Positions 3,066 to 27,652 of a DNA stretch of 32,123 nt are shown piece by piece. The DNA is from Alphaproteobacteria bacterium HGW-Alphaproteobacteria-11. Its GTDB lineage: Bacteria > Pseudomonadota > Alphaproteobacteria > Parvibaculales > Parvibaculaceae. Under the pieces are notes generated by a model. The model was not told the origin of the DNA and did not search any database. It saw only the letters and a program-made list of their open reading frames with translations. The position numbers were made by a program, and so were the translations under genes. Where the stretch lies: the NCBI GenBank assembly GCA_002841195.1, contig PHEO01000007.1, positions 1 through 32,123 on the forward strand, in the 5' to 3' direction. Numbering within the stretch: the first letter of the stretch is position 1; every line of letters begins with the position of its first letter.

Positions 3066-3278
3066 GCTGAAATTCCTCCCCTTGATCCCTGGCCTGGCGT
3101 CAGCTCTTCTCCCGCCGGCTCATGTTGGGCGCGAGTTTACCTACCCCGCCGGACGGGGCAAGCAAAGCCCGCGCGCCCTTTCATGGGGCCGGAAGTCCTC
3201 TTGCCGCTGGACGCAGGGGCGGCGCGGGTTAGACTGACCGCAACAAGAACATCAATTTTCCGGGAGGAACGACAGACG

Positions 3279-3830
3279 ATGGCCCGCATTCCCTATTTCG
3301 ATCCGGCCAAGGCCGAAGGCCGCGCCAAGGCGGTCTACGAGAAGCTGCCCAACCTCAACATTTTCCGCATGCTCGGCCATTCGGGCGACATGATCGACGG
3401 CTTCATCAAGCTCGGAAATGCAATCCTGATCCACAGCGAACTCGATCCGGTCTTGCGGGAAATCGCCATTGTGCGCGTCGGCGTGCTGAAAGGCGCCTCC
3501 TACGAGGTCTATCAGCACGAGGCGATCTCGCGGAAGCTCGGCATGTCCGAGGATCTCATCAAGGCGATCCACGAGGGGCCGGAGGCCGAGATCTTCGACG
3601 AAACGCAACGCCAGGTGATGCGCTTCACCGACGATGTGGTGAAGAACACCCGCGCATCCGACGCGACCTTCAACCCGCTGGCAGAAAAGCTCGGCTACAA
3701 GCAGTTGCAGGAACTGGTCATCACCATCGGCTTTTACACCACCGCCTGCTATTTCCTCGAGACCTTCGATGTCGATATCGAGGATGCGGGGCATAAATCG
3801 GGCGTCAAGCTGCCGGGCATGCAGGACTGA
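3279..3830 (+). CDS. Carboxymuconolactone decarboxylase-family protein, copy 1
   Basis: The 183-residue protein has the helical AhpD/CMD fold. The track ORF begins at 1356, but the credible start is the ATG at 3279, which has GGGAGG at 3262-3267 and opens with MARIPYFDPA, like the next gene. The signature region reads ILIHSELDPVLREIAIVRVG and then YEVYQHEAISRKLGMS, which keeps the Glu and His of the CMD motif. There is no CxxC, so AhpD-type peroxidase chemistry is unlikely. Proteins of this type sit in many aromatic and steroid catabolic clusters, often without a proven reaction. It is the first gene of a tight operon (2 bp to the next start). Its divergent neighbours are acyl-CoA ligases. 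The family is clear; the reaction is unknown. Confidence 0.88.
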   Translation: MARIPYFDPAKAEGRAKAVYEKLPNLNIFRMLGHSGDMIDGFIKLGNAILIHSELDPVLREIAIVRVGVLKGASYEVYQHEAISRKLGMSEDLIKAIHEGPEAEIFDETQRQVMRFTDDVVKNTRASDATFNPLAEKLGYKQLQELVITIGFYTTACYFLETFDVDIEDAGHKSGVKLPGMQD

Positions 3831-3832
3831 CC

Positions 3833-4399
3833 ATGGCCCGCATTCCCTATCCCGATCCGGCGACGCTCGCGCCCGAGGCGCGGGCCCTTCGCGACAGCCT
3901 GCCGCAACTCAACATTTTCAAGATGATTTCCGGCAGCGGCCCCTCGTTCCTGCCGTTCATGGCGCTGGTCAATGCCTATCTCAACGACGGGCTGCTCGAT
4001 ACCGAACTGCGCGAACTGGTGATCCTGCGCGTCGGCCATCTTTGTGGCTCGACCTATGAGCAGCACCAGCACCGCCGCGTCTCGCGCATGATCGGCATGT
4101 CGGAGGCGCGTATCGAAGCGGCGGCGAGCGCGCTGCCCTCGCCGCATCTGAGCGACACGGAAAATTCCGTGCTCGCTTTCACCGACGATCAGGTGGCGAA
4201 CGTCAAGGCCGACGCAAAGCTGTTCGCCGCGGCGCATGCGGCGCTTGGCGACGCCGCGATGCAGGAACTCGTCATCATCATCGGCATCTATCTTCTCGTC
4301 TGCCGCTACCTCGAAACCTTCGAGATCGAACTCGAGGACAAGGACATCGAGACGAGCGGCCTCGACGAAATCAGGCGGAGCATGAAGAACAATGGCTGA
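3833..4399 (+). CDS. Carboxymuconolactone decarboxylase-family protein, copy 2
   Basis: This 188-residue paralogue sits in tandem directly behind copy 1, with only two bases between the TGA and the ATG. The first 18 nt of both genes (MARIPY) are identical, and the core motifs align: LNIFKMI versus LNIFRML, LDTELRELVILRVG, then YEQHQHRRVSRMIGMS. The later parts diverge strongly, so the duplication is old. It likewise has no CxxC pair. Its 3' end overlaps the next SDR gene by 8 bp (ATGGCTGA), so translation is probably coupled. The two proteins may form a hetero-oligomer or act on successive intermediates; the sequence cannot decide between these. Confidence 0.88.
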   Translation: MARIPYPDPATLAPEARALRDSLPQLNIFKMISGSGPSFLPFMALVNAYLNDGLLDTELRELVILRVGHLCGSTYEQHQHRRVSRMIGMSEARIEAAASALPSPHLSDTENSVLAFTDDQVANVKADAKLFAAAHAALGDAAMQELVIIIGIYLLVCRYLETFEIELEDKDIETSGLDEIRRSMKNNG

Positions 4400-5228
4400 C
4401 GGTGGATTCGTACAGGCGCTGCCGCCCGAATCGACGGGCGAGGCACCGGGTCGCGGGCGGTTGAAGGGCCGGCGCATTCTGGTCGTCGGCGGCGGCCAGC
4501 GCGTACTCGACGCGGCGACCGATCCCGTCGGCAACGGCCGCGCCATGTCGATCCTCTTTGCCCGCGAAGGCGCCAGCGTTGCGGTTGCCGACATCAACAA
4601 GGCGTCCGCCGGCGAAACGGCGGCAAAGATCGCGGCGGAGGGCGGCAAGGCGAGCGCCATCGTGGCCGACATTTCAAAACCGGACGACATTCCGCGCATG
4701 ATCGCGGAGGCCGAAAAGGCATTGGGAGGGCTTGACGGCCTCGTGCTCAATGTCGGTATCGGCGTCGGCGGCCTCGGCCTCGAAGGCGCGACACCCGAAG
4801 ACTGGGACAAGGTGCTGGGCGTCAACCTGCGCGGGCCGATGCTCTGTTGCAAGGCGGCGCTGCCGCGGCTGGCCGACGGCTCACCGGTCGTTTTCATTTC
4901 CTCGATCGCCGGGCAGATCGCCGGGTCGCGCCTGCCGGCCTATGATGCCTCGAAGGCGGCGCTGGGCGGGTTGATGCGCCATGTCGCGCTTGAAGGTTCG
5001 CGGCGCGGCATCCGCGCCAACATCGTCGCGCCGGGTCTGGTCGACACACCGCTCGGAAGACTGGCGACGCAGGGCCGTCCGTCGCGCGGCCGGACGCCCG
5101 TGCCCTTCGGACGGCAGGCGACCGGCTGGGAGATCGCCAACGCGGCGCTCTTCCTCGTCTCCGACGAAAGCGTCTACATCACCGCGCAGACGCTCGCCGT
5201 CGACAGCGGCCTCACCGGCATTTCTTAG
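4392..5228 (+). CDS. SDR-family oxidoreductase with expanded cofactor loop
   Basis: This is a 278-residue NAD(P)-dependent short-chain dehydrogenase/reductase. The catalytic residues are visible: Ser in SSIAG (about 170-171) and Tyr184-x-x-x-Lys188 in AYDASKAAL. The Rossmann loop is unusual. In place of TGxxxGIG it reads VGGGQR, then about eight extra residues (VLDAATDP), then VGNGRA. The NNAG element is NVGI. An acidic residue after beta-2 (ADIN) suggests NAD preference. The start overlaps the end of CMD copy 2, so coupling is likely, and the gene is followed after 11 bp by the MBL hydrolase. It probably oxidises a hydroxyl, or reduces a ketone, on the substrate handled by this operon. The family is certain; the substrate is unknown. 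Confidence 0.9.
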   Translation: MADGGFVQALPPESTGEAPGRGRLKGRRILVVGGGQRVLDAATDPVGNGRAMSILFAREGASVAVADINKASAGETAAKIAAEGGKASAIVADISKPDDIPRMIAEAEKALGGLDGLVLNVGIGVGGLGLEGATPEDWDKVLGVNLRGPMLCCKAALPRLADGSPVVFISSIAGQIAGSRLPAYDASKAALGGLMRHVALEGSRRGIRANIVAPGLVDTPLGRLATQGRPSRGRTPVPFGRQATGWEIANAALFLVSDESVYITAQTLAVDSGLTGIS

Positions 5229-5239
5229 GGAGCAGGAAC

Positions 5240-6220
5240 ATGGGTCTCGGACTGAGCCACTTCCAATACACCAAGGGTCTGCACGATCTGGGCAATGGCG
5301 GCTACGCATGGCTGCAACCGGATGGCGGTTGGGGCTGGTCGAATGCCGGCCTGATCGTCGACAGCGGCGAGTCATTCCTCGTCGATACGCTGTTCGACGT
5401 GCCGCTGACGCGCGACATGCTCGCCGCGATGCGCAAGGCCGAGCCGAAGGCGGCGGCGAAAATAAACACCGTCGTCAACACCCATCACAATGGCGATCAC
5501 TGCAACGGCAATGAATGCTGCGCCGGCGCCGAGATCATCGCCCACAAGCTCGCCGTCGAAGCCATGCGCCACGAGCCGCCGGCGCTGCTGGCCGGCTTCC
5601 TCGACATGGCACCCGGCCTCGGCGATCTCGGCAAATATGTGACGCAATGTTTCGGCGCCTTCGACTTCAAGGGCGTGACGCAGACACTGCCGACAACGAC
5701 CTTCGAAACCGAATTGACCCGTCATGTCGGCGCGAAGGAAATCCGCATCATGCATGTCGGCCCCGCGCACACGCCGGGCGACGCGCTGGTCTATGTGCCA
5801 GCCGACAAGACGGTTTTCACCGGCGACATTCTGTTTATCGAAGGCCACCCGATCATGTGGGAAGGCCCGGTCTCGAACTGGATCGCGGCCTGCGACAAAA
5901 TTCTGGCAATGGATGTGGAAACGGTCGTGCCGGGCCACGGCCCGATCACGGGAAAGAATGGCGTCAAGGCGGTGCGCGAATATCTGGTCTATGTGCGCGA
6001 CGAGGCGAAGAAGCGCCACGACGCGGGAATGACGGCGCTGGAGGCCGCGCTCGACATCGACATGACCGATTACGACAGCTGGGGCGACGGCGAACGCATC
6101 GTCGTCAACGTCGCAACGCTCTACAAGGAGTTCAACGGCGACCAAACGCCCAACGACGCCGTAACGCTGTTCGGCCAGATGACCGAAGTCGCAAAGAAGA
6201 AGGGCATCCTGAAGACCTGA
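5240..6220 (+). CDS. MBL-fold metallo-hydrolase
   Basis: The 326-residue protein has a metallo-beta-lactamase fold and would be a zinc-type hydrolase acting on an ester, lactone or thioester. Visible motifs are NTHHNGDHCNGN (residues 80-91), GPAHTPGD with the third-motif His, FTGDILFIEG with the bridging Asp, and VVPGHGP with the last His. In the first motif the canonical HxHxDH reads H82-H-N84-G-D86-H87, so the second His ligand is Asn. I recall the same THxNGDH pattern in other uncharacterised MBL proteins, so it is probably a subfamily trait and not damage. An AGGGAGCAGG Shine-Dalgarno supports the ATG. It is the fourth gene of the CMD-CMD-SDR-MBL operon. No signal peptide is seen, so it should be cytoplasmic. 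Confidence 0.9.
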   Translation: MGLGLSHFQYTKGLHDLGNGGYAWLQPDGGWGWSNAGLIVDSGESFLVDTLFDVPLTRDMLAAMRKAEPKAAAKINTVVNTHHNGDHCNGNECCAGAEIIAHKLAVEAMRHEPPALLAGFLDMAPGLGDLGKYVTQCFGAFDFKGVTQTLPTTTFETELTRHVGAKEIRIMHVGPAHTPGDALVYVPADKTVFTGDILFIEGHPIMWEGPVSNWIAACDKILAMDVETVVPGHGPITGKNGVKAVREYLVYVRDEAKKRHDAGMTALEAALDIDMTDYDSWGDGERIVVNVATLYKEFNGDQTPNDAVTLFGQMTEVAKKKGILKT

Positions 6221-6239
6221 CCCGGCGGCGCCTTGACGC

Positions 6240-6255
6240 TGCGTCACGTCACGCA
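6240..6255. promoter_or_regulatory. Near-palindrome ahead of the GST genes
   Basis: TGCGTCACGTCACGCA is a 16-bp palindrome with one mismatched pair. It lies in the 108-bp gap between the MBL gene and the first GST, 7 bp after a TTGACG hexamer, though no convincing -10 follows. It could be an operator for a GST/GH84 transcript. No regulator can be assigned. Confidence 0.3.
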
Positions 6256-6328
6256 GGCGTGATCTCCTGCGCGTGGACAGTGCCCCGCTGCGCGCCGAAG
6301 ATCGCGCAAACGAAACGGGGGACCCGCC

Positions 6329-7114
6329 ATGCCGACACTCTACGAACATCCGCTCTCGCCCTATGCGCAGAAGGTGAAAATCGCAGCGCGCGAAAAGGGC
6401 GTCGAGCTGACGCTGAAGACACCGGACGGCATTGGCGCGGGGACCTCACAAGGCGAGTTCGTCGCCGCCAATCCGCGCGCCGAGGTGCCGGCGCTGATTG
6501 ATGGCGACGTGCAGGTTTTCGATTCGACGATCATCCTCGAATATCTCGAAGACAAATACCCGGCGCCGCCGATGCTGCCGGCCGCGCCGGCCGCGCGCGC
6601 CAGGGTCCGCATGATCGAAGATGTGTGCGACACGCACTACGAGGCCATCAATTGGGGCCTCGGCGAAATCGCCTATTTTCGCCGCGCGTCGGGCGCAAAG
6701 GCCGCCGAGATGCAGACCCGCGCCGCCGAACAGACGGCGCGCATCCACACCTGGCTGACGCGCCAGCTCGGGCAAGCCGACTGGTTCAATGGCGACAGCT
6801 TTGGCTGGGGCGACCTCTCCGTCGTGCCCTATGTCAACGGCTCGACCGGTTTCGGCAACGCACCCGACGAAGGCTCGGCCCTCGGGCGCTGGCTTGCCCG
6901 CATCAATGCGAGGCCAAGCGTCGCGCAGACGGCGAAGGAAGCCCGCGACAGCATCGCCGCCATGGCGCAGGTTGCGAATGTGCTGGAACAGGGCCTCTTC
7001 AAGCGCGAATATCGCGACCACCGTCTTGAATGGATGATGAAGACCGGCGGAGTCGAGATCGTTCTCGACGGCCTGAAGAAAGACAACATCCGCTTCAGTC
7101 ACGACTTCAAATAG
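6329..7114 (+). CDS. Glutathione S-transferase family protein
   Basis: This 261-residue GST has an N-terminal thioredoxin-like domain (about 1-80) beginning MPTLYEHPLSPYAQKVKI. The cis-Pro segment VPALIDG and the glutathione gamma-glutamyl contact DSTIILEYLE are both present. An all-helical C-terminal domain follows, with the N-capping-box-like region GDSFGWGDLSVVPYV. The catalytic position is probably Ser10 in LSPYAQ. It is somewhat longer than a typical 200-230 residue GST, with a C-terminal tail (EYRDHRLEWMM onward). A second GST follows after 8 bp. With a CoA ligase for aromatic acids nearby, a role in aryl-ether or xenobiotic metabolism is conceivable, but that is only inference from context. 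Confidence 0.9.
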   Translation: MPTLYEHPLSPYAQKVKIAAREKGVELTLKTPDGIGAGTSQGEFVAANPRAEVPALIDGDVQVFDSTIILEYLEDKYPAPPMLPAAPAARARVRMIEDVCDTHYEAINWGLGEIAYFRRASGAKAAEMQTRAAEQTARIHTWLTRQLGQADWFNGDSFGWGDLSVVPYVNGSTGFGNAPDEGSALGRWLARINARPSVAQTAKEARDSIAAMAQVANVLEQGLFKREYRDHRLEWMMKTGGVEIVLDGLKKDNIRFSHDFK

Positions 7115-7122
7115 GAACGCCC

Positions 7123-8055
7123 ATGCCCGCCGACGCGACGTCCATCATTCTGCACCAATACGACATCTCGCCTTTTTCGGAGAAGGTGCGCGTGGTGCTC
7201 GGGATCAAGGGTCTCGACTGGTTCGCCTGCGACGAGCCCGTCATCATGCCGAAACCCGAACTTGTCGCGCTGACCGGCGGCTACCGGAAAATTCCCGTCA
7301 TGCAGATCGGCGCCGACATTTATTGCGACACGCAGATCATCATACGCGAGCTCGAACGCCGCTTCCCGAAACCGTCGATCTTCACCGGCGGCGACAAGGG
7401 CCTCGGCTGGGGCATGGGGCTGTGGACCGACCGCAGCTTTTTCATGGCGGCTGTCGCGGTCATTTTCGGCAACGCGCCGGACGCAATGGGCGAGGATTTC
7501 AAGGCCGACCGCACGAAACTGATGGGCCGCCCCTTCGACACGGAAGCGATGAAAGCGGGCGCGCCGCTGATGGCCGAACAGCTCCGCGCCAATTTCGGCT
7601 GGCTTGAAGAGCAACTGGCGGATGGCCGAAAATTCCTGATGGGAGAGGCGCCGGGCATCGCCGATGCCAACGCCTATTACAATCTGGCCTTCATCCGCTG
7701 GATCGTGCCGGCCGCGATGAAGAGCGCCGAGGCGATGCCGAATCTCGCCGCCTGGGAGAAACGGGTGAAGGGCATCGGCCATGGGAGCCGACAGGAAATT
7801 TCGCGCGACGCGGCGCTCGACATCGCAAAGGCCGCAACCTCGGGCGAAGCTGTGAAAGCCGATCCGGGCGAACCCAACGGGCTGAAGCCCGGCGACAAGG
7901 TGACCGTAGTGGCCGATGACTACGGACGCGATCCGATTGCAGGCGAACTCGTTTCTTCCTCCGCGCAACACATCGCACTGAAGCGCAACGATCCACGCGT
8001 CGGCAACGTGGTGGTGCATTTCCCGCGTGCGGGCTTCCTCGTCATACGCGGCTGA
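7123..8055 (+). CDS. Glutathione S-transferase family protein with C-terminal beta-rich extension
   Basis: The track ORF starts at 7030. I choose the ATG at 7123, 8 bp after the upstream GST stop, because the thioredoxin fold begins right there (MPADATSIILHQYDISPFSEKV). The product has 310 residues: a GST N-domain (1-85, with RKIPVMQIG and CDTQIIIRELE), a helical C-domain (about 95-225, with GIADANAYYNL) and an extra segment of about 75 residues. That segment contains GLKPGDKVTVVADDYGRD and repeated beta-strand-like stretches ending FPRAGFLVIRG. The extension resembles a small beta-barrel and is not part of ordinary GSTs. Ser17 is the likely catalytic residue. It sits between the first GST and the GH84 gene, 1 bp from the latter, so the three are probably one transcript. 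Confidence 0.88.
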   Translation: MPADATSIILHQYDISPFSEKVRVVLGIKGLDWFACDEPVIMPKPELVALTGGYRKIPVMQIGADIYCDTQIIIRELERRFPKPSIFTGGDKGLGWGMGLWTDRSFFMAAVAVIFGNAPDAMGEDFKADRTKLMGRPFDTEAMKAGAPLMAEQLRANFGWLEEQLADGRKFLMGEAPGIADANAYYNLAFIRWIVPAAMKSAEAMPNLAAWEKRVKGIGHGSRQEISRDAALDIAKAATSGEAVKADPGEPNGLKPGDKVTVVADDYGRDPIAGELVSSSAQHIALKRNDPRVGNVVVHFPRAGFLVIRG

Positions 8056-8056
8056 C

Positions 8057-9121
8057 ATGACGCCGGAACTCGGAACGATCGAAGGTTTCTACGGGCGGCC
8101 CTGGACGGTTGAAGAGCGAGCCGCGAACATCGCCTTTCTCGCGGGCCATGGATACGGGTTTTACCTCTACGCGCCGAAAGCCGACACGTTCCTGCGCCGC
8201 CGCTGGGCCGATCCGCACCCGAAGGATATGGCCGACGATCTCGCGCGCCTCGCCGCGCAATGCCGCAACGCGGGCGTCCGCTTCGGCGTCGGCCTGAGCC
8301 CCTACGAGCTTTATCTGAATTTCGACGCCGCCGCCCGCGAGGCGCTGACTGAAAAGCTCGCCTTCCTCGATGCGATCGGATGCGTCGACCTTGCGATCCT
8401 GTTCGACGACATGCGCGGCGACATCGAGGGTCTCGCCGACAAGCAGATCGAAATTGTCGACTGGATCGCCGCGCGCACCGGCGCGAGCCGCCTCATCACA
8501 TGCCCGAGCTACTACACCGACGACCCGATCCTCGATCGCGTCTTCGGCGCCCGTCCGCCCGGCTATCTCGAGGCGCTGGGTGCGCGCCTCGATCCCGCCG
8601 TCGAAATCATGTGGACGGGTCCGCGCGTCTGCTCGAAGGAACTTCCCGTGGATCACCTCGCGCGCACCGCCGAAACGCTGCGCCGCAAGCCCTTCATCTG
8701 GGACAATTATCCGGTCAATGACGGCCAGCGCATGTCGCCTTTCCTCCACCTGCGCGCCTTCACCGGCCGCGCGCGCGAGATCGGCGCCGAAATTTCGGCA
8801 CATGGCGTCAATCCGGCGTCGCAGGCGTGGCTCAGCCGCATTCCGATGCTGACGCTTGAAATGCTCTACCGCGATGCCGCCTATGATCCCGACAATGCAT
8901 TCCGCGCCGCCGCCGGGGAAATCTGCGGACCGGCGCTCGGGAAAACAATCGGCGAAGACCTCACGGCCTTTCAGGATCGCGGCCTGAATGAAATGACGGA
9001 CAAGGAAAAGGCGGCGCTGCATTCCCGCTACGCCGCCTTCGATCATCCCTGCGCCCGCGAAATCGCCCTCTGGCTCGACGGCCACTGGCGCATCACGGAC
9101 GAAATCGTCCAGACACAGTAG
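8057..9121 (+). CDS. GH84-type beta-N-acetylglucosaminidase (protein O-GlcNAcase-like)
   Basis: The 354-residue protein matches the catalytic barrel of glycoside hydrolase family 84, which removes beta-linked GlcNAc by substrate-assisted catalysis. Hallmarks are IEGFYGRPWTVEER at the N-terminus, YLYAPKAD, the catalytic Asp pair in AILFDDMRGD (Asp117-Asp118) and WDNYPVND (about 222-229). The ATG at 8057 is chosen because it lies 1 bp after the GST stop and the barrel starts at once; the track start at 8027 only adds residues encoded by the overlapping GST frame. There is no signal peptide, so the enzyme should be cytoplasmic, unlike secreted clostridial NagJ-type enzymes. Only the barrel and a short helical tail are present. 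Its stop TAG abuts the stop of the convergent SDR gene. Natural substrate unknown. Confidence 0.9.
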   Translation: MTPELGTIEGFYGRPWTVEERAANIAFLAGHGYGFYLYAPKADTFLRRRWADPHPKDMADDLARLAAQCRNAGVRFGVGLSPYELYLNFDAAAREALTEKLAFLDAIGCVDLAILFDDMRGDIEGLADKQIEIVDWIAARTGASRLITCPSYYTDDPILDRVFGARPPGYLEALGARLDPAVEIMWTGPRVCSKELPVDHLARTAETLRRKPFIWDNYPVNDGQRMSPFLHLRAFTGRAREIGAEISAHGVNPASQAWLSRIPMLTLEMLYRDAAYDPDNAFRAAAGEICGPALGKTIGEDLTAFQDRGLNEMTDKEKAALHSRYAAFDHPCAREIALWLDGHWRITDEIVQTQ

Positions 9122-21272: not shown

Positions 21273-22346
21273 ATGAGCCGGGGAGCTTCGAAATTGGCCG
21301 CCGATACCGCATTTGACGTCTCGAAACAACGCATCGACTGGATCGATATGGCCAAGGGCCTGACGATCGTCCTTGTGGTGATGGAACACACGACCGCCGG
21401 CGTCGGCGCGGCGCTCGGACAGCTTCCCGTCGTTTTCGGCGCGCTGGCGGAATTCGCCAAGCCCTTCCGCATGCCGCTCTTTTTCCTGGTCGCCGGCCTC
21501 TTCGCCTACAAGGCGCTATATGGCGATCTCCGCAAATTCGTCGACGGCAAGGTCGTCCACTTCGCCTATTTCTACCTGCTCTGGTCGGTGATCCAGATCG
21601 GTCTGAAAATCGTGATCCCCCATACAAGCACCTGGCAGGTGACCTATGTCGATCTGCTGCTGATCCCGATCCAGCCTTTCGCGGTACTCTGGTTCATCTA
21701 TTCGCTGGCGATGTTCTTCGTCACCATGCGCCTCCTGCGCGATGCGCGGCCCATCTTCGTGTTCTTTTTTGCGCTGGCGCTCTATTTCGCAAATATCGAC
21801 ACCGGCTGGATGCTGATCGATGAATTCGCCTGGCGTTTCGTCTGGTTCGTCGCCGGCGTCTATGGCGCGAAGCAGATTTTCGAACTCGCCGACTGGGCGC
21901 GGGAGAAACCGCTTCACGCGATCGGTCTCGCCTCGGTCATGCTTGCAAGCGTCGCCACCGTCGTCTTCTCGCGTCTTGTGGAAATTCGCGGCCTCGAACT
22001 GCTGATGGGCATTGCCGGCGCCGGCAGCGCCGTCATGCTGGTGAGCCTGCTGGCCGCCGCGCGGCTGGGCGAGCCGCTCGCCTATATCGGCCGCCACTCG
22101 CTCTATATCTTCCTGGCGTTTTTCCTGCCGATGGCGGCGATGCGCACCGGGCTTGTGCGCCTGGGTGTCGACAATGGCGACCTCGTGACGCTTCTCACCA
22201 CCGCCTTCGCCGTGGTCATGCCGATCATTGCCTATCGAATTGTCGTCAACACGCCGCTCGACGTCTTCTTCGTCAGGCCCGACATGTTCCGTCTGACATC
22301 GCCTCGTCCGCACACGCCGAAGATCATGGTCGCCGCCGGCGACTAG
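21273..22346 (+). CDS. Acyltransferase-3 family membrane protein
   Basis: The 357-residue integral membrane protein belongs to the acyltransferase-3 (OafA/OpgC-like) family, which moves acyl groups, often acetyl or succinyl, onto exported polysaccharides or lipids. The N-terminal RIDWIDMAKGLTIVLVVMEHTT holds the conserved Arg and the catalytic His (EHTT). FRMPLFFLVAGLFAYK is the second family motif. About ten hydrophobic helices run to the C-terminus. No SGNH domain is attached, so it would act alone or with a separate protein. The intergenic distance to gluQRS is 90 bp. It converges on the AEC transporter, and both stops share the CTAG at 22343-22346. The acceptor molecule is unknown. Confidence 0.88.
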   Translation: MSRGASKLAADTAFDVSKQRIDWIDMAKGLTIVLVVMEHTTAGVGAALGQLPVVFGALAEFAKPFRMPLFFLVAGLFAYKALYGDLRKFVDGKVVHFAYFYLLWSVIQIGLKIVIPHTSTWQVTYVDLLLIPIQPFAVLWFIYSLAMFFVTMRLLRDARPIFVFFFALALYFANIDTGWMLIDEFAWRFVWFVAGVYGAKQIFELADWAREKPLHAIGLASVMLASVATVVFSRLVEIRGLELLMGIAGAGSAVMLVSLLAAARLGEPLAYIGRHSLYIFLAFFLPMAAMRTGLVRLGVDNGDLVTLLTTAFAVVMPIIAYRIVVNTPLDVFFVRPDMFRLTSPRPHTPKIMVAAGD

Positions 22347-23296
22347 GACGGCGCGAGAAAGAAGCCGAGAAGCACCGTCAAGGTGACGAGGCTGGCAGCC
22401 GTCGAGAGCACGACGGCACTCGACGCGGCACCCGGCGCCGCACCGTAACGGTTGGCGAGGATCGAGGAGTAAACGCCGGTCGGCATGCCGGCAAGCACCG
22501 TCGCCGCCGCAACCCAGAGCGGCTCAAGCCCGAACACGAACTGCGCCAGCACAAACACCAGTGCCGGATGCGCGACGAGCTTGAAGAGGCTCGTCATCGA
22601 GGCCGCGCCGATCGAACGGCGGATGGCATAGCGCGTCAGCATGCCGCCAAGCACGAAAAGCGCGCAGGGGATGGCCGAGCGCGCCACCATTTCGAGCGAG
22701 TTGTCGACAACCGCCGGCAGCGGCACCCCGAGCTGGCCGTACACGACCCCGCCCGCGATGCCGATGATGACGGGGTTCTTCGCGGTGTTGAGCAGCCCTT
22801 CCTTGAGGATCGCCTGAAAGCGCGGTTGCGCCACGCCGTCGCGAACGCGCGTGAGCTCGAGCAGGAAGGTCGCAATGGTAAAAAGAATGATGCCGTGAAA
22901 GGCGAGGATCAGAAAAACCGGCGTGCCTGCCGCTTCACCGAAACCTGTGAGGATGATCGGCAGGCCGAGCATGATCGTGTTGCCCTGCCCGCAACCGAAT
23001 CCGAGCATGACGCTGTCCTTCGCCGGCCGGCGGAGAACATAAAGCGCGATGAGAGAGCCCACCGCCCAGACGGTCAACATGGCGCCGTAGTAGGAAATCC
23101 ATAGGCCCCAGGGCAACGCCGCCGGAAATTCGGTATGCGCGAGATTGCGGAACAGCAGCACCGGCATTGCGAATGTGAAGACATAGGCATCGAGCCCGTC
23201 GATGACGCCGGCGCCCAGGAGCTTCGAGCGCACCGCCGCATAGCCGAGGCCGATAACGCCAAAGATCGGCAGAACAAGACCGAGAGCGACTTCCAT
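22343..23296 (-). CDS. AEC-family (auxin efflux carrier-like) transporter
   Basis: The 317-residue membrane protein has two sets of about five TM helices, as in AEC/BASS-fold carriers such as malonate or malate permeases. Typical elements are the N-terminal LVLPIFGVIGLGYAAVR, GCGQGNTIMLGLPIILTGFG around the first crossover, and the C-terminal AGMPTGVYSSILANRYG with its conserved Pro. Substrates of bacterial members are mostly small organic anions; none can be named here. The Shine-Dalgarno is weak (GGTCCCCGTC before the ATG). It lies 74 bp downstream of the VWA gene on the same strand, far enough to be a separate unit. Its stop overlaps that of the acyltransferase. Confidence 0.88.
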   Translation of the reverse strand: MEVALGLVLPIFGVIGLGYAAVRSKLLGAGVIDGLDAYVFTFAMPVLLFRNLAHTEFPAALPWGLWISYYGAMLTVWAVGSLIALYVLRRPAKDSVMLGFGCGQGNTIMLGLPIILTGFGEAAGTPVFLILAFHGIILFTIATFLLELTRVRDGVAQPRFQAILKEGLLNTAKNPVIIGIAGGVVYGQLGVPLPAVVDNSLEMVARSAIPCALFVLGGMLTRYAIRRSIGAASMTSLFKLVAHPALVFVLAQFVFGLEPLWVAAATVLAGMPTGVYSSILANRYGAAPGAASSAVVLSTAASLVTLTVLLGFFLAPS

Positions 23297-23370: not shown

Positions 23371-24051
23371 CTACCAGTCGTAGAGACCCGTGAAGTGCTG
23401 GAAGCCGGCGGCTTGCGCCCAGCGTTCCCATTGTTCGCGCGCACGCTTGGTCACCGCCGGGCTGCCGCCACCCTGCCCGACGCCGAGCATCATCAATTCG
23501 GTGCAACCCTGATAGTAAGCTTCCGGCTTCGGCAACGCGCCGCCGCGCAACATGCGGGTCTGCTCGGAATCCTCGAAACCGTCGGTGAGCAGGATGACGC
23601 GCACATCGCCGGCCGCGCAATCGACCTGATGCGACATCGTCTCCATGAAGGAGACGATATAAGTCCATTGCTGCGCCTTGAGCTTGCCTTCGGCGACAAG
23701 CTGCGGCATCGCCGCGACAAGCGCCGAGACGCCTTCGGCCACCGATTCCGGCCGGGCGCGCGCGGAGATGGTTTCGTCGATCTTCAGCGGGTTCTCGGAA
23801 GAATCATAAGCGCCGAAGGTCCGCACCATGACGCGCGAGCGCACCGGCAGCTTGTCGATCTCCGCAACCATGCGCGCCGCGACGCGCGCCGCATAGGCCT
23901 CGTCCTCGACCAGCGGATTGCTCTTCGACAGATCGAGCCCGATGATGACGGTTTGAGCCCGCGCCGGCGCATCGACGGCACCCGCGCCGGCGGCAAGGAA
24001 CGGCGCCGAAAGAAAAGCCAAGGCGACAGCGAGCGGGGCAAAGTTGCGCAT
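23371..24051 (-). CDS. Exported von Willebrand factor A-domain protein, function unknown
   Basis: The 226-residue protein starts with a hydrophobic signal peptide (LAVALAFLSAPFLAAGAGA) that probably cleaves near residues 25-32. A VWA-like domain follows: IIGLDLSKSNPL (40-44) provides the MIDAS DxSxS metal motif, and VILLTDGFED (156-158 TDG) is the fourth-strand motif. Two Cys (145, 183) could form a periplasmic disulfide. No lipobox is evident. The ATG at 24051 is used because the signal peptide begins there and the longer track ORF runs through the upstream gene. The gene sits 5 bp after the four-TM protein gene, so it is the last member of a tight three-gene operon. The partner ligand is unknown. 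Confidence 0.83.
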   Translation of the reverse strand: MRNFAPLAVALAFLSAPFLAAGAGAVDAPARAQTVIIGLDLSKSNPLVEDEAYAARVAARMVAEIDKLPVRSRVMVRTFGAYDSSENPLKIDETISARARPESVAEGVSALVAAMPQLVAEGKLKAQQWTYIVSFMETMSHQVDCAAGDVRVILLTDGFEDSEQTRMLRGGALPKPEAYYQGCTELMMLGVGQGGGSPAVTKRAREQWERWAQAAGFQHFTGLYDW

Positions 24052-24056
24052 GCCGC

Positions 24057-25148
24057 TCACTCGCCCGCCCGGCCGATGGGAATTCGGCGCGAACCGCGCG
24101 GCGGCAGGATTTCGCCGAAAGGTTCGCGAACGGCTTCCATCCGCGACGGTCCGGCCTTCATCGCGTTGCGCGAGCGCCGCTCCCACCAATCGTCGAAAAG
24201 CTTCTCGTAGCGGCCGAGATGACGCGAATCCTCGCAGGCCTTGACGCGCTCGCTGGCATGGCCGTTGACCAGCAACTTCTCCTTGCGCATGCCGAGAAAA
24301 CCGCGTCGCGGCGCCACGGTGATGCCGTTGCGGCGCGCGTCGTCGAGTCCCTGTTCGTAGGCGCGGCATTCGCGCATCAGACCCGTCCACAGAAGATGAC
24401 GCCGGTTCTCCGGGCCTTCCATTTCGGCCAGCGCATGGCGGTTGCTGTCATACTCGGCCTCGAGCGCGGCAAGCCGCTCCATCGCCGTGCGGCGATGCTT
24501 GAAGTCGCGCGCATGGAAGACGCGGCGCAGCGCCGTGATCGCATAGTGAATGCAGAGCGCGGCAACGCCGGTAACGACAAGAAAGACGATCCCGAGCGAG
24601 GCGAGCCATGCGAGCGGCTGCCAGCCGCGCATCTGGTCGACCTCGGAAGCGACGCGCACCGTTTCCTGGGTCGCCGTCGAGGCGATGCCGAGACCGGCCA
24701 GTGCATTGCCGAGCGAGGAGCCGACGCTGCCGTCGCTCGTCGCCGCGATGCCGTTCGGCAGCGACATCAGCGCCAGCAACACGCCGACGCCGAGCAGCAT
24801 GGCGAGCGCCAGCACGAAAACGATGCGGACAAAGACCGCCTTGCCGAAAGCGCCGAGCTGCTCGTAAAGGATATGGGCGGCGACGGTGGCGAAAAGCACC
24901 TGCATCGACTTGAAGGCAACCGACGAGCCGAGCGCACCGGGCAGTTCGAGGAACTCGTTGGCGAGCGCCCGCGTCCAGAATTCGCTGACGATCGCATAGT
25001 CGACGATCAGCGCGCCAACGGCGATGAGCCCGATCAGGATGAAGGCGAAGAAATGAAACGAGGCGAACCGCGCCTCGCGCTCGCTTGCGACATAGTTGCG
25101 CGAAATCTGCGCGCGCGTGTCTTCGGGAATGAGTGTCGTCGCGCTCAT
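24057..25148 (-). CDS. Four-TM membrane protein of unknown function
   Basis: I do not recognise this 363-residue protein. It has four likely TM helices, near residues 31-55, 78-98, 104-129 and 178-203. The 50-residue loop between the third and fourth is Gly/Ser/Ala-rich (TSDGSVGSSLGNALAGLG). The C-terminal 150 residues are charged and probably cytoplasmic. They start with a helix or coiled coil (DFKHRRTAMERLAALEAEYD) and contain MRECRAYEQGLDDARRNG and a Trp-rich FDDWWERRSR. The pattern of an N-terminal TM cluster and a long helical tail loosely recalls MotA/ExbB-like proteins, but no family motif supports that. Its start overlaps the stop of the small upstream gene as ATGA, and the VWA gene follows after 5 bp. 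Confidence 0.8.
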   Translation of the reverse strand: MSATTLIPEDTRAQISRNYVASEREARFASFHFFAFILIGLIAVGALIVDYAIVSEFWTRALANEFLELPGALGSSVAFKSMQVLFATVAAHILYEQLGAFGKAVFVRIVFVLALAMLLGVGVLLALMSLPNGIAATSDGSVGSSLGNALAGLGIASTATQETVRVASEVDQMRGWQPLAWLASLGIVFLVVTGVAALCIHYAITALRRVFHARDFKHRRTAMERLAALEAEYDSNRHALAEMEGPENRRHLLWTGLMRECRAYEQGLDDARRNGITVAPRRGFLGMRKEKLLVNGHASERVKACEDSRHLGRYEKLFDDWWERRSRNAMKAGPSRMEAVREPFGEILPPRGSRRIPIGRAGE

Positions 25149-25435
25149 GATTTCGCCCTCCGGCTGAAGAAGCCCTTGCGCTTCGGCGTCTCGGACGCGG
25201 CGCTTTCAAGCGGCGCGGAAAGGCGCTTGGCTAGTTCGACGACTTCGCGTTCCAGCGTTTCCTGCCGCGCGCGCCGCCGCGCCAGCTCGGCGGCATAGGC
25301 CGCGTCGAGCTCGGAAAGCCGCGAGAAAACATGAAGCTCGGGAAGCGGCTCCGCGGCGCGGCCATAGTGATAGGCCGTCTGCCCCTTGCCTTGCGCGCCG
25401 CCCGGCGCACTCCCCGTATCGAAACCGTCGCTCAT
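25145..25435 (-). CDS. Small coiled-coil protein, first gene of the VWA operon
   Basis: I do not recognise this 96-residue protein. It has a disordered Gly-rich N-terminus, a conserved-looking YHYGRAAEPLPELHVFSRLSELD segment (named in part) and then a Glu/Arg/Leu-rich helix. That helix (AYAAELARRRARQETLEREV, about 46-65) is probably a coiled coil. The tail KRKGFFSRRAKS is very basic. The ATG at 25435 is preceded by AAGGATC at a usable distance; the track ORF adds eight residues. The stop overlaps the next start (ATGA), so it is translationally coupled to the four-TM gene. It may bind the cytoplasmic helical tail of that protein, which is inference only. Confidence 0.75.
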   Translation of the reverse strand: MSDGFDTGSAPGGAQGKGQTAYHYGRAAEPLPELHVFSRLSELDAAYAAELARRRARQETLEREVVELAKRLSAPLESAASETPKRKGFFSRRAKS

Positions 25436-25548
25436 CAGCCCGATCCTTTTCTGACACAACCGGCATTAACACTCTGGGAGAGTAACACCGGTCGACAGGC
25501 AGGCGGAGTCTGGAAAAATGAAATCGTCGAGATGAGAGGGCGCCCGCC

Positions 25549-25565
25549 ACACCTTAACAAGGTGT
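25549..25565. repeat. Perfect inverted repeat ACACCTT-AAC-AAGGTGT
   Basis: A 7-bp perfect palindrome with a 3-bp centre lies in the 213-bp gap between the end of Ecm (25649) and the small coiled-coil gene (25435). No T-tract follows on either strand, so it is not a standard terminator. It could be an operator or 5'-UTR hairpin for the VWA operon. No convincing promoter was found in the gap. Confidence 0.4.
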
Positions 25566-25648
25566 CTCATTGAAGGACTCCAATGCGGCGGAAAGATTAT
25601 GGGAATATGGCAAGAATGTGATGACTGCCCGCTAAATCGGCAGCCGCC

Positions 25649-27652
25649 TCACGCCGCCTCATCCGTGTTGTAATCCACCAGCCGCACGACTTCAGCCATG
25701 ATGTCGGTGATCTGGAAATCCTTGGGCGTGTAGATGGCGGCGACGCCGGCGGCGCGGAGCTTTTCCTCGTCATCCGCGGGGATGATACCGCCGACGACGA
25801 CCGGGATGTCGGTGAGCCCCGCCTCGCGCATCCGCTGCATCACATCCTCAACCAGCGGCACGTGACTGCCCGACAGGATCGACAGCCCGACGACATGCAC
25901 GTCGCCCTGCTGCGCCGATGCGACGATCTGTTCAGGCGTCAGGCGGATACCGTCATAAACGACATCCATGCCGCAATCGCGCGCGCGCACCGCGATCTGC
26001 TCGGCGCCGTTCGAATGACCGTCGAGGCCGGGCTTGCCGACAAGGAACTTCAGGCGGCGGCCGAGCTTCGAGGACACCGCATCGACCATCGCCCGCACCG
26101 GGTCGAGATCGCCCGGCGCATTGCGCGCCGCGCGGGAAACGCCGGTCGGCGCGCGATATTCGCCGAAAATCTGCCGGAGCGCCGTGCCCCACTCGCCGGT
26201 GGTGACGCCGGCCTTGGCACATACGATCGACGGCTCCATGATGTTGCGGCCTTCCTTGGCGGCGCGGCGCAGATCGGCAAGCGCCGCCTCGACTGCCTCC
26301 TTGTCGCGCGCCGCACGCCAGGCTTCGAGCGCCGCGACCTGCTCGGCCTCGACGCCGGCATCGACGACATGGATCGACCCCGCGCCGGTCGAAAGCGGCG
26401 ACGGCGCCGTTTCGACATAGCGGTTGACGCCGACCACGACCTGCCGACCGGCCTCGATTTCCTCAAGCCGCGCCGAATTGGATTCGACGAGGCGTTCTTT
26501 CATATAGGCGCTGTCGACGGCCGCCACCGCGCCGCCCATCTCCTCGATCCGCGCCAGTTCCTCGCGCGCTTCAACCTTCAGCGCCTCAACCTTGGCGTCC
26601 ATTGCCTTCGAGCCGTCGAAGATGTCGCCATATTCGAGAAGGTCGGTTTCATAAGCGAGAATCTGCTGCGCGCGAAGCGACCATTGCTGGTCCCAGGGCC
26701 GCGGCAGACCAAGCGCCTCGTTCCACGCCGGAAGCTGCACCGCGCGGGCACGGGCGTTCTTCGACAGCGTCACCGCCAGCATTTCAAGCAGGATGCGATA
26801 GACGTTGTTTTCCGGCTGCTGCTCGGTGAGGCCGAGCGAATTGACCTGCACCCCATAGCGGAAGCGGCGGAGCTTTGCGTCCTCGACACCGTAGCGGTCG
26901 CGGCAGATCTCGTCCCAGAGATCGACAAAGGCGCGCATCTTGGCGATCTCGGTGATGAAGCGCACACCGGCATTGACGAAAAAGCTGATGCGGCCGACGA
27001 CTTGCGGAAAATCCGTCTCCGGCACCTGTCCGCTCGCCTTCAGCCGGTCGAGCACCGCCTGCGCGGTCGCCAGCGCAAAGGCAAGCTCCTGCACCGGCGT
27101 CGCACCCGCTTCCTGCAAATGATAGGAGCAGACGTTTGTGGGATTCCACTTCGGCACTTCGCGGTAAGTGTAGGAAACGATGTCGGTGATGAGGCGCATC
27201 GAAGGCTCGGGCGGAAACACATAAGTGCCGCGCGAGAGATATTCCTTGATGATGTCGTTCTGGACCGTGCCCTGAAGTTTCGCCCGGTCGGCGCCGTGCT
27301 CGTCCGCCACCGCGATATAGAGCGCCAGCAGCCATGCCGCCGTCGCGTTGATCGTCATGGAGGTGTTCATCTGCTCCATCGGGATCGCGTCGAAGAGAGC
27401 CCGCATGTCGCCGATGTGAGAAACGGGAACGCCAACCTTGCCGACCTCGCCGCGCGCCAGCACATGGTCGCTGTCGTAGCCGGTCTGCGTCGGCAGGTCG
27501 AAGGCGATCGAAAGGCCGGTCTGGCCGCGCGAAAGATTGGTGCGGTAAAGCGCGTTCGAGGCTTTCGCCGTCGAATGGCCGGCATAGGTGCGGAAAATCC
27601 AGGGATTGTCCTTTGCCGGAACGTTCCCGCCGCCCTCACTGCCCTTGCTCAT
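25649..27652 (-). CDS. ecm: Ethylmalonyl-CoA mutase-type B12-dependent mutase (Ecm/MeaA)
   Basis: This 667-residue adenosylcobalamin-dependent acyl-CoA mutase has a single chain: an N-terminal TIM barrel and a C-terminal B12 domain. The barrel has WIFRTYAGHSTAKASNALYR, FDLPTQTGYDSDH and MNTSMTINATAAW. The B12 domain has GKPGLDGHSNGAEQ (Asp544-x-His546-x-x-Gly), SILSGSH and VVVGGIIP. The TYAGHSTAKASN segment is the pattern I associate with ethylmalonyl-CoA mutase, in contrast to TxRPYAGFST of methylmalonyl-CoA mutase, and Ccr lies nearby. It converts (2R)-ethylmalonyl-CoA to methylsuccinyl-CoA. GAGGG supports the ATG at 27652. The upstream region carries a palindrome whose core repeats before ccr. 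A methylmalonyl-CoA mutase cannot be wholly excluded. Confidence 0.9.
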   Translation of the reverse strand: MSKGSEGGGNVPAKDNPWIFRTYAGHSTAKASNALYRTNLSRGQTGLSIAFDLPTQTGYDSDHVLARGEVGKVGVPVSHIGDMRALFDAIPMEQMNTSMTINATAAWLLALYIAVADEHGADRAKLQGTVQNDIIKEYLSRGTYVFPPEPSMRLITDIVSYTYREVPKWNPTNVCSYHLQEAGATPVQELAFALATAQAVLDRLKASGQVPETDFPQVVGRISFFVNAGVRFITEIAKMRAFVDLWDEICRDRYGVEDAKLRRFRYGVQVNSLGLTEQQPENNVYRILLEMLAVTLSKNARARAVQLPAWNEALGLPRPWDQQWSLRAQQILAYETDLLEYGDIFDGSKAMDAKVEALKVEAREELARIEEMGGAVAAVDSAYMKERLVESNSARLEEIEAGRQVVVGVNRYVETAPSPLSTGAGSIHVVDAGVEAEQVAALEAWRAARDKEAVEAALADLRRAAKEGRNIMEPSIVCAKAGVTTGEWGTALRQIFGEYRAPTGVSRAARNAPGDLDPVRAMVDAVSSKLGRRLKFLVGKPGLDGHSNGAEQIAVRARDCGMDVVYDGIRLTPEQIVASAQQGDVHVVGLSILSGSHVPLVEDVMQRMREAGLTDIPVVVGGIIPADDEEKLRAAGVAAIYTPKDFQITDIMAEVVRLVDYNTDEAA

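Follow-up and report, generated by a model that had tools for sequence, protein, structure and literature searches.

A conserved gene module of a coiled-coil protein, a four-TM membrane protein and an exported VWA protein as a probable part of cell-envelope organisation in Alphaproteobacteria

We analysed three adjacent genes, g1, g2 and g3, of the window (i.e., the whole 32,123-nt stretch of DNA under study, from a 3.25 Mb assembly whose nearest named relatives belong to Parvibaculum), and conclude that they form a module with a probable, so far undescribed role in organising the cell envelope. No family library that we searched covers its two core subunits, but these appear as a conserved, dispensable and selected unit in several alphaproteobacterial orders, and in many relatives the promoter bears sites typical of CtrA, a master regulator of the cell cycle.

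All three genes lie on the minus strand. g1 (25145..25435) encodes a soluble coiled-coil protein of 96 aa with the basic tail KRKGFFSRRAKS, g2 (24057..25148) a membrane protein of 363 aa, and g3 (23371..24051) an exported VWA protein of 226 aa when counted from its ATG. The end of g1 and the start of g2 have ATGA (4 bp) in common, and the ATG of g3 is found 5 bp past the g2 stop (an alternative in-frame GTG upstream would give a GTGA overlap with g2); the tight leftward operon described in the first-pass annotation was thus seen again. On its upstream side is a gene of the methylmalonyl-CoA mutase family (25649-27652), and on its downstream side a Mem_trans carrier gene (22343-23296). This gene anatomy is solid, and from it and the comparisons below we infer what the operon may do.

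The first-pass annotation had also called the operon unrecognised, and our searches agree: g1, g2 and g3 have no match above cut-offs in Pfam, NCBIfam, the PADLOC protein models (PADLOC-DB 2.0.0) or PHROGs. Matches to SiaB (0.037) and Cas11e (0.022) in the family scans of the three proteins were regarded as noise. Single-sequence searches against PDB came back empty, profile searches against PDB returned chance matches only, and a search of a literature collection for VWA together with CtrA found no paper in it.

The most readily interpreted protein is g3. Its N-terminus is signal-peptide-like, and this is the only place in the chain where a hydrophobic export signal or anchor is predicted. 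The MIDAS (metal-binding) motif announced in the first-pass annotation (DLSKS, TDG) is complete, with D40, S42, S44, T130 and D157, and all five residues are invariant across 35 homologues with identity to the window protein as low as 35%; C145, C183 and the GL(Y/N)DW at the C-terminus vary hardly at all. The AlphaFold model (pLDDT 87.3) has the alpha/beta Rossmann-like fold of VWA domains, and Foldseek matches it in PDB to vWF A1, factor B, the integrin I domain and CMG2 with probability about 1.00, with the CLCA1 VWA domain also among the matches. No curated VWA profile in Pfam, NCBIfam, PADLOC or PHROGs covers g3, nor did one in Pfam when 9 members were used. Alignment and model together strongly support a VWA fold with an intact MIDAS, and the lack of a matching profile marks the g3 family as a diverged sequence subfamily of this fold.

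For g2, four TM helices are predicted (about 31-49, 72-97, 109-127 and 182-200), with both termini in the cytoplasm and a helical tail of about 155 residues, close to the tail of some 150 residues first proposed. Invariant polar residues are found around TM1-TM2 (D50, W58, K80, S81, Q83 and H92). The AlphaFold model, built from a 41-sequence alignment, is all helical (mean pLDDT 78.9) and has a 67-residue helix (177-243) leading from TM4 into the cytoplasm. The tail is nearly gone in some relatives, e.g. L032, in which the chain stops shortly past TM4. A Foldseek search of the g2 model against PDB gave nothing significant, its best hit (E 0.34) being, like the others, to long helices of a generic kind, and a match of the four-TM protein to a characterised family, which would have spoken against the original description, was found neither by sequence nor by fold. 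The predicted topology places g1 and the g2 tail in the cytoplasm and g3 outside, which bears out the two-sided membrane layout suggested earlier.

The small basic-tailed coiled-coil protein was described as a component in its own right, and this part of the description has to be revised: the 96-aa protein and its tail are as stated, but g1 is not an independent partner of g2. In four relatives (L059, L100, L101 and L103, Candidatus Phaeomarinobacter-type), one reading frame contains first the g1 domain and then g2; E-values of the g1 HMM against these fused proteins run from 1.5e-11 to 9e-8, and the 476-aa protein of L059 aligns colinearly to window g1 and then to g2. Distant g2 proteins other than these four are extended at the N-terminus by helical segments of their own. 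The correlation of pairwise distances between g1 and g2 (r 0.974) is the highest among the pairs tested, as compared to 0.90 for g1 and 0.89 for g2 against gluQRS in the same species. These comparisons strongly support the unity of g1 and g2 and indicate that g1 is the detached N-terminal cytoplasmic domain of g2, which gives an identity to an otherwise orphan 96-aa protein. The lasting core of the module is therefore g2 plus g3, and a separate g1 is a Parvibaculaceae arrangement. Two other matches of g1 were rejected. The similarity to an Rz-like spanin (E 0.0028) reflects the coiled coil, and g1, which in other genomes is joined to a membrane protein, has no signal peptide or TM helix; the hhalign match between g1 and the N-termini of distant g2 proteins was discounted, as the alignment is dominated by the added TM segment.

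Out of 37 genomes of the family that were searched, 30 contain g2, and in all 30 loci g1, g2 and g3 are syntenic and spaced by -4 to 22 bp, so that the case in which the genes are not neighbours elsewhere, named at the outset as evidence against the operon, was not encountered. dN is far below dS in g1, g2 and g3. Together, synteny and purifying selection mean that the layout is not due to chance. Among GTDB contigs we identified 59 loci, including one from a gammaproteobacterium (L091) and 58 of alphaproteobacterial type (Parvibaculaceae, Rhizomicrobium of Micropepsales, many MAGs, and a few titled only Proteobacteria). g2 is immediately ahead of g3 in 58/58 of the latter; among the neighbouring genes, gluQRS and the mutase recur. 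The g2-g3 pair is duplicated in tandem in L075 (4704-8487), L077, L111, L112 and L114. In an even draw of Alphaproteobacteria, matches were found in 21 of the 385 genomes, which amounts to 13 of the 276 genera. Distances of g2 and g3 track those of gluQRS (r 0.94 and 0.86, respectively), as expected for mostly vertical descent.

Two complete genomes lack the module. In G006, of the same genus, the mutase gene is followed by 31 bp and then the carrier gene (L134, 7816-7848), with g1-g3 and the intergenic block described below absent together; in G027 (L135), the stretch from the mutase to gluQRS is without the module. The module is therefore not essential to the group, and its loss, strongly supported by these junctions, indicates that it behaves as one unit. 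VWA subunits are found in cobalt chelatase, and a tie of the module to the neighbouring B12-dependent mutase was considered and rejected: g3 is exported, and the trio stays together where the mutase is not adjacent.

The stretch that separates g1 from the mutase gene (25436..25648, minus strand) contains candidate control elements. In Caulobacter, TTAA pairs with N7 and with N6 spacing are both CtrA motifs (PMC4287350). A perfect TTAA-N7-TTAA is found upstream of g1 in 11 of the 30 family loci (L001-L030), starting at -29 to -45 and with differing spacers. Of the 27 Parvibaculaceae loci in the contig set, 10 have a perfect N7 box within 120 bp upstream of g1, where shuffled sequences give an expectation of about 0.01, and 3 have an N6 box. 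Outside the family, other orders included, a box with at most one mismatch lies upstream of g2 in 9 of 30 loci (0.46 expected; 2 of 30 perfect). These counts serve as guides, since the shuffles preserve nothing beyond base composition and related species do not count as independent. The argument is carried by the neighbouring-gene controls and by the occurrence of boxes in two phylogenetic groups: the five control sets, which include sequences upstream of the mutase, gluQRS, carrier and acyltransferase genes, contain no N7 box, and 12 of the 13 such CtrA-type sites found in 650 kb of loci are at the module promoter. CtrA-type boxes in the relatives are thus strongly supported as sequence motifs. 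In the window's clade the left half of the box has degraded or been lost and only one TTAA half remains (25466..25469, minus strand), where other Parvibaculum species have the right half of the box, so CtrA may, but need not, control the window's own copy. The window's genome encodes a full-length protein 84% identical to a CtrA query, and GcrA is present as two contig-end pieces. A GANTC (CcrM-type) site at -75 (25506..25510, minus strand) is conserved in many Parvibaculum species, and there is a second GANTC site at -145 (25576-25580).

A conserved non-coding block of about 60 nt (25563..25622, minus strand) is missing at the cassette-free G006 junction. Its sequence, ATCACATTCTTGCCATATTCCCATAATcTTTCCGCCGCATTGGAGTCCTyCAATG, is near-identical in Parvibaculum species between which the proteins diverge by 20-35%. 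It is possibly regulatory; a comparison with Rfam gave no match.

Outside the alphaproteobacterial-type loci, homologous VWA proteins are found in L091 (Chromatocurvus halotolerans, Gammaproteobacteria; profile E 1e-61) and in L117, from a genome of another class (E 4e-23; both values calculated for nominal 100,000 sequences). Both loci have the order small helical protein, four-TM protein and VWA protein with overlapping reading frames, and their four-TM partners have a helix spacing similar to that of g2 and a long tail. We term these partners analogous only, because a profile comparison with g2 detected no homology. The L091 cassette (3207-8620) is flanked by HsdM with an unmatched 453-aa protein on one side and by a serine recombinase on the other; the frames adjoining the L117 cassette, named by eye, resemble a VirD4-type coupling protein, MobC and a relaxase. 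Weak matches in L118 and L119 were set aside, as the reading frames there resemble unrelated proteins. At the sensitivities used, no relatives were found in 72,556 plasmids, 50,697 phage records and IMG/VR.

That the promoters have CtrA-type sites, that the genes are inherited next to metabolic ones and that the phage and plasmid collections lack them all suggests a role in the envelope or the cell cycle; on the other side, distant homologues are found in mobile contexts. Our preferred reading is that the operon products form one inner-membrane complex serving as an envelope tether or landmark, in many carriers timed through CtrA, a tentative proposal to which we give slightly less than an even chance. 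The four-TM g2 would be the scaffold, with g1 and the long g2 tail in the cytoplasm and the exported g3 on the periplasmic face, probably docked to the periplasmic loops of g2. There, the metal-dependent MIDAS of g3 may hold a protein or wall ligand, so that the complex could act as a McaA-like tether or landmark of the cell envelope, made in many carriers at a set cell-cycle stage. We counted against this reading the missing left half of the CtrA box in the window's clade, the mobile contexts of the L091 and L117 g3 homologues, the existence of G006 and G027 without the module, and the few genera that carry it (13/276 sampled). If CtrA does time a periplasmic metal-dependent adhesion protein, more envelope factors would be wired into the alphaproteobacterial cell cycle.

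The closest comparison is with McaA/McaB of Magnetospirillum, in which the periplasmic MIDAS VWA of McaA is needed for localisation and function and can place a membrane protein (PMC9512821). That system, too, combines an intact-MIDAS VWA in the periplasm beside the inner membrane with a membrane-spanning segment and a portion in the cytoplasm, and is likewise two-gene, syntenic and alphaproteobacterial. In McaA, however, the VWA domain, TM helix and cytoplasmic C-terminal domain are in one chain (PMC9512821), whereas here the exported VWA protein, which has an N-terminal hydrophobic segment only, is separate from the four-TM protein, and the same topology is predicted on separate chains. We treat McaA as an analogue of the module, and kinship between the two would be putative. 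Bat proteins also place a periplasm-facing VWA at the inner membrane, but their own chains include TM helices and their genes accompany that of a MoxR AAA+ ATPase, whereas the module is flanked by the mutase and carrier genes with no MoxR AAA+ ATPase gene adjacent.

A wider account takes the mobile relatives and the alphaproteobacterial loci as one VWA lineage used as an undescribed, interchangeable envelope device: the order small coiled coil, four-TM protein and exported VWA would have been kept while the membrane partner was replaced or diverged past recognition, the device being a CtrA-timed landmark in Alphaproteobacteria and mobile-borne elsewhere. We consider this possible but rather doubtful.

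The module could instead be a signalling complex, the view taken in the first-pass annotation: a ligand in the envelope would be sensed by the VWA protein on the periplasmic side, and g1 together with the tail of g2 would relay the signal to a cytoplasmic partner. An exported VWA with a membrane protein and two cytoplasmic helical parts would suit this role, and the continuation of TM4 into the long helix is a plausible lever; however, none of the three proteins showed an enzymatic domain or a known signalling domain in the family scans, and relatives such as L032 almost lack the tail. We judge signalling unlikely.

We hold it to be quite improbable that g2 conducts or moves a substrate through a polar TM1-TM2 core with g3 as a VWA auxiliary for gating or trafficking, as in alpha2delta and CLCA of animals. 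The invariant polar D50, K80, S81, Q83 and H92 in or beside TM helices and the CLCA1 match of the g3 model are consistent with such a channel or transporter. On the other hand, g2 has only four TM helices, its model has no structural match to any channel, and we know of no pore signature for it. The likeness to alpha2delta/CLCA (an extracytoplasmic MIDAS VWA) is one of fold alone. Two four-TM proteins with no detectable homology to g2 beside homologous VWAs also argue against a specific transport chemistry.

In contrast to the envelope tether or landmark that we prefer, a module for anti-phage defence, exclusion or a mobile element, domesticated in some Alphaproteobacteria, is likewise quite improbable: the order shared with the cassette beside the serine recombinase and HsdM in L091 and with a four-TM/VWA cassette in L120 (5146-11519) that directly adjoins VirD4-type coupling protein-, MobC- and relaxase-like frames (named by eye) is set against the lack of PADLOC matches and of plasmid and viral relatives, and against genes that in Alphaproteobacteria are CtrA-linked, mostly single-copy and syntenic with the mutase and gluQRS, in step with which they evolve. 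A similar pairing, in which a multi-TM protein of the inner membrane has a partner that acts on the opposite side, is seen in membrane defence systems such as Zorya, but the module matches no PADLOC model. The L120 locus also encodes two related small proteins (117 and 153 aa) that have the same MGLWN start.
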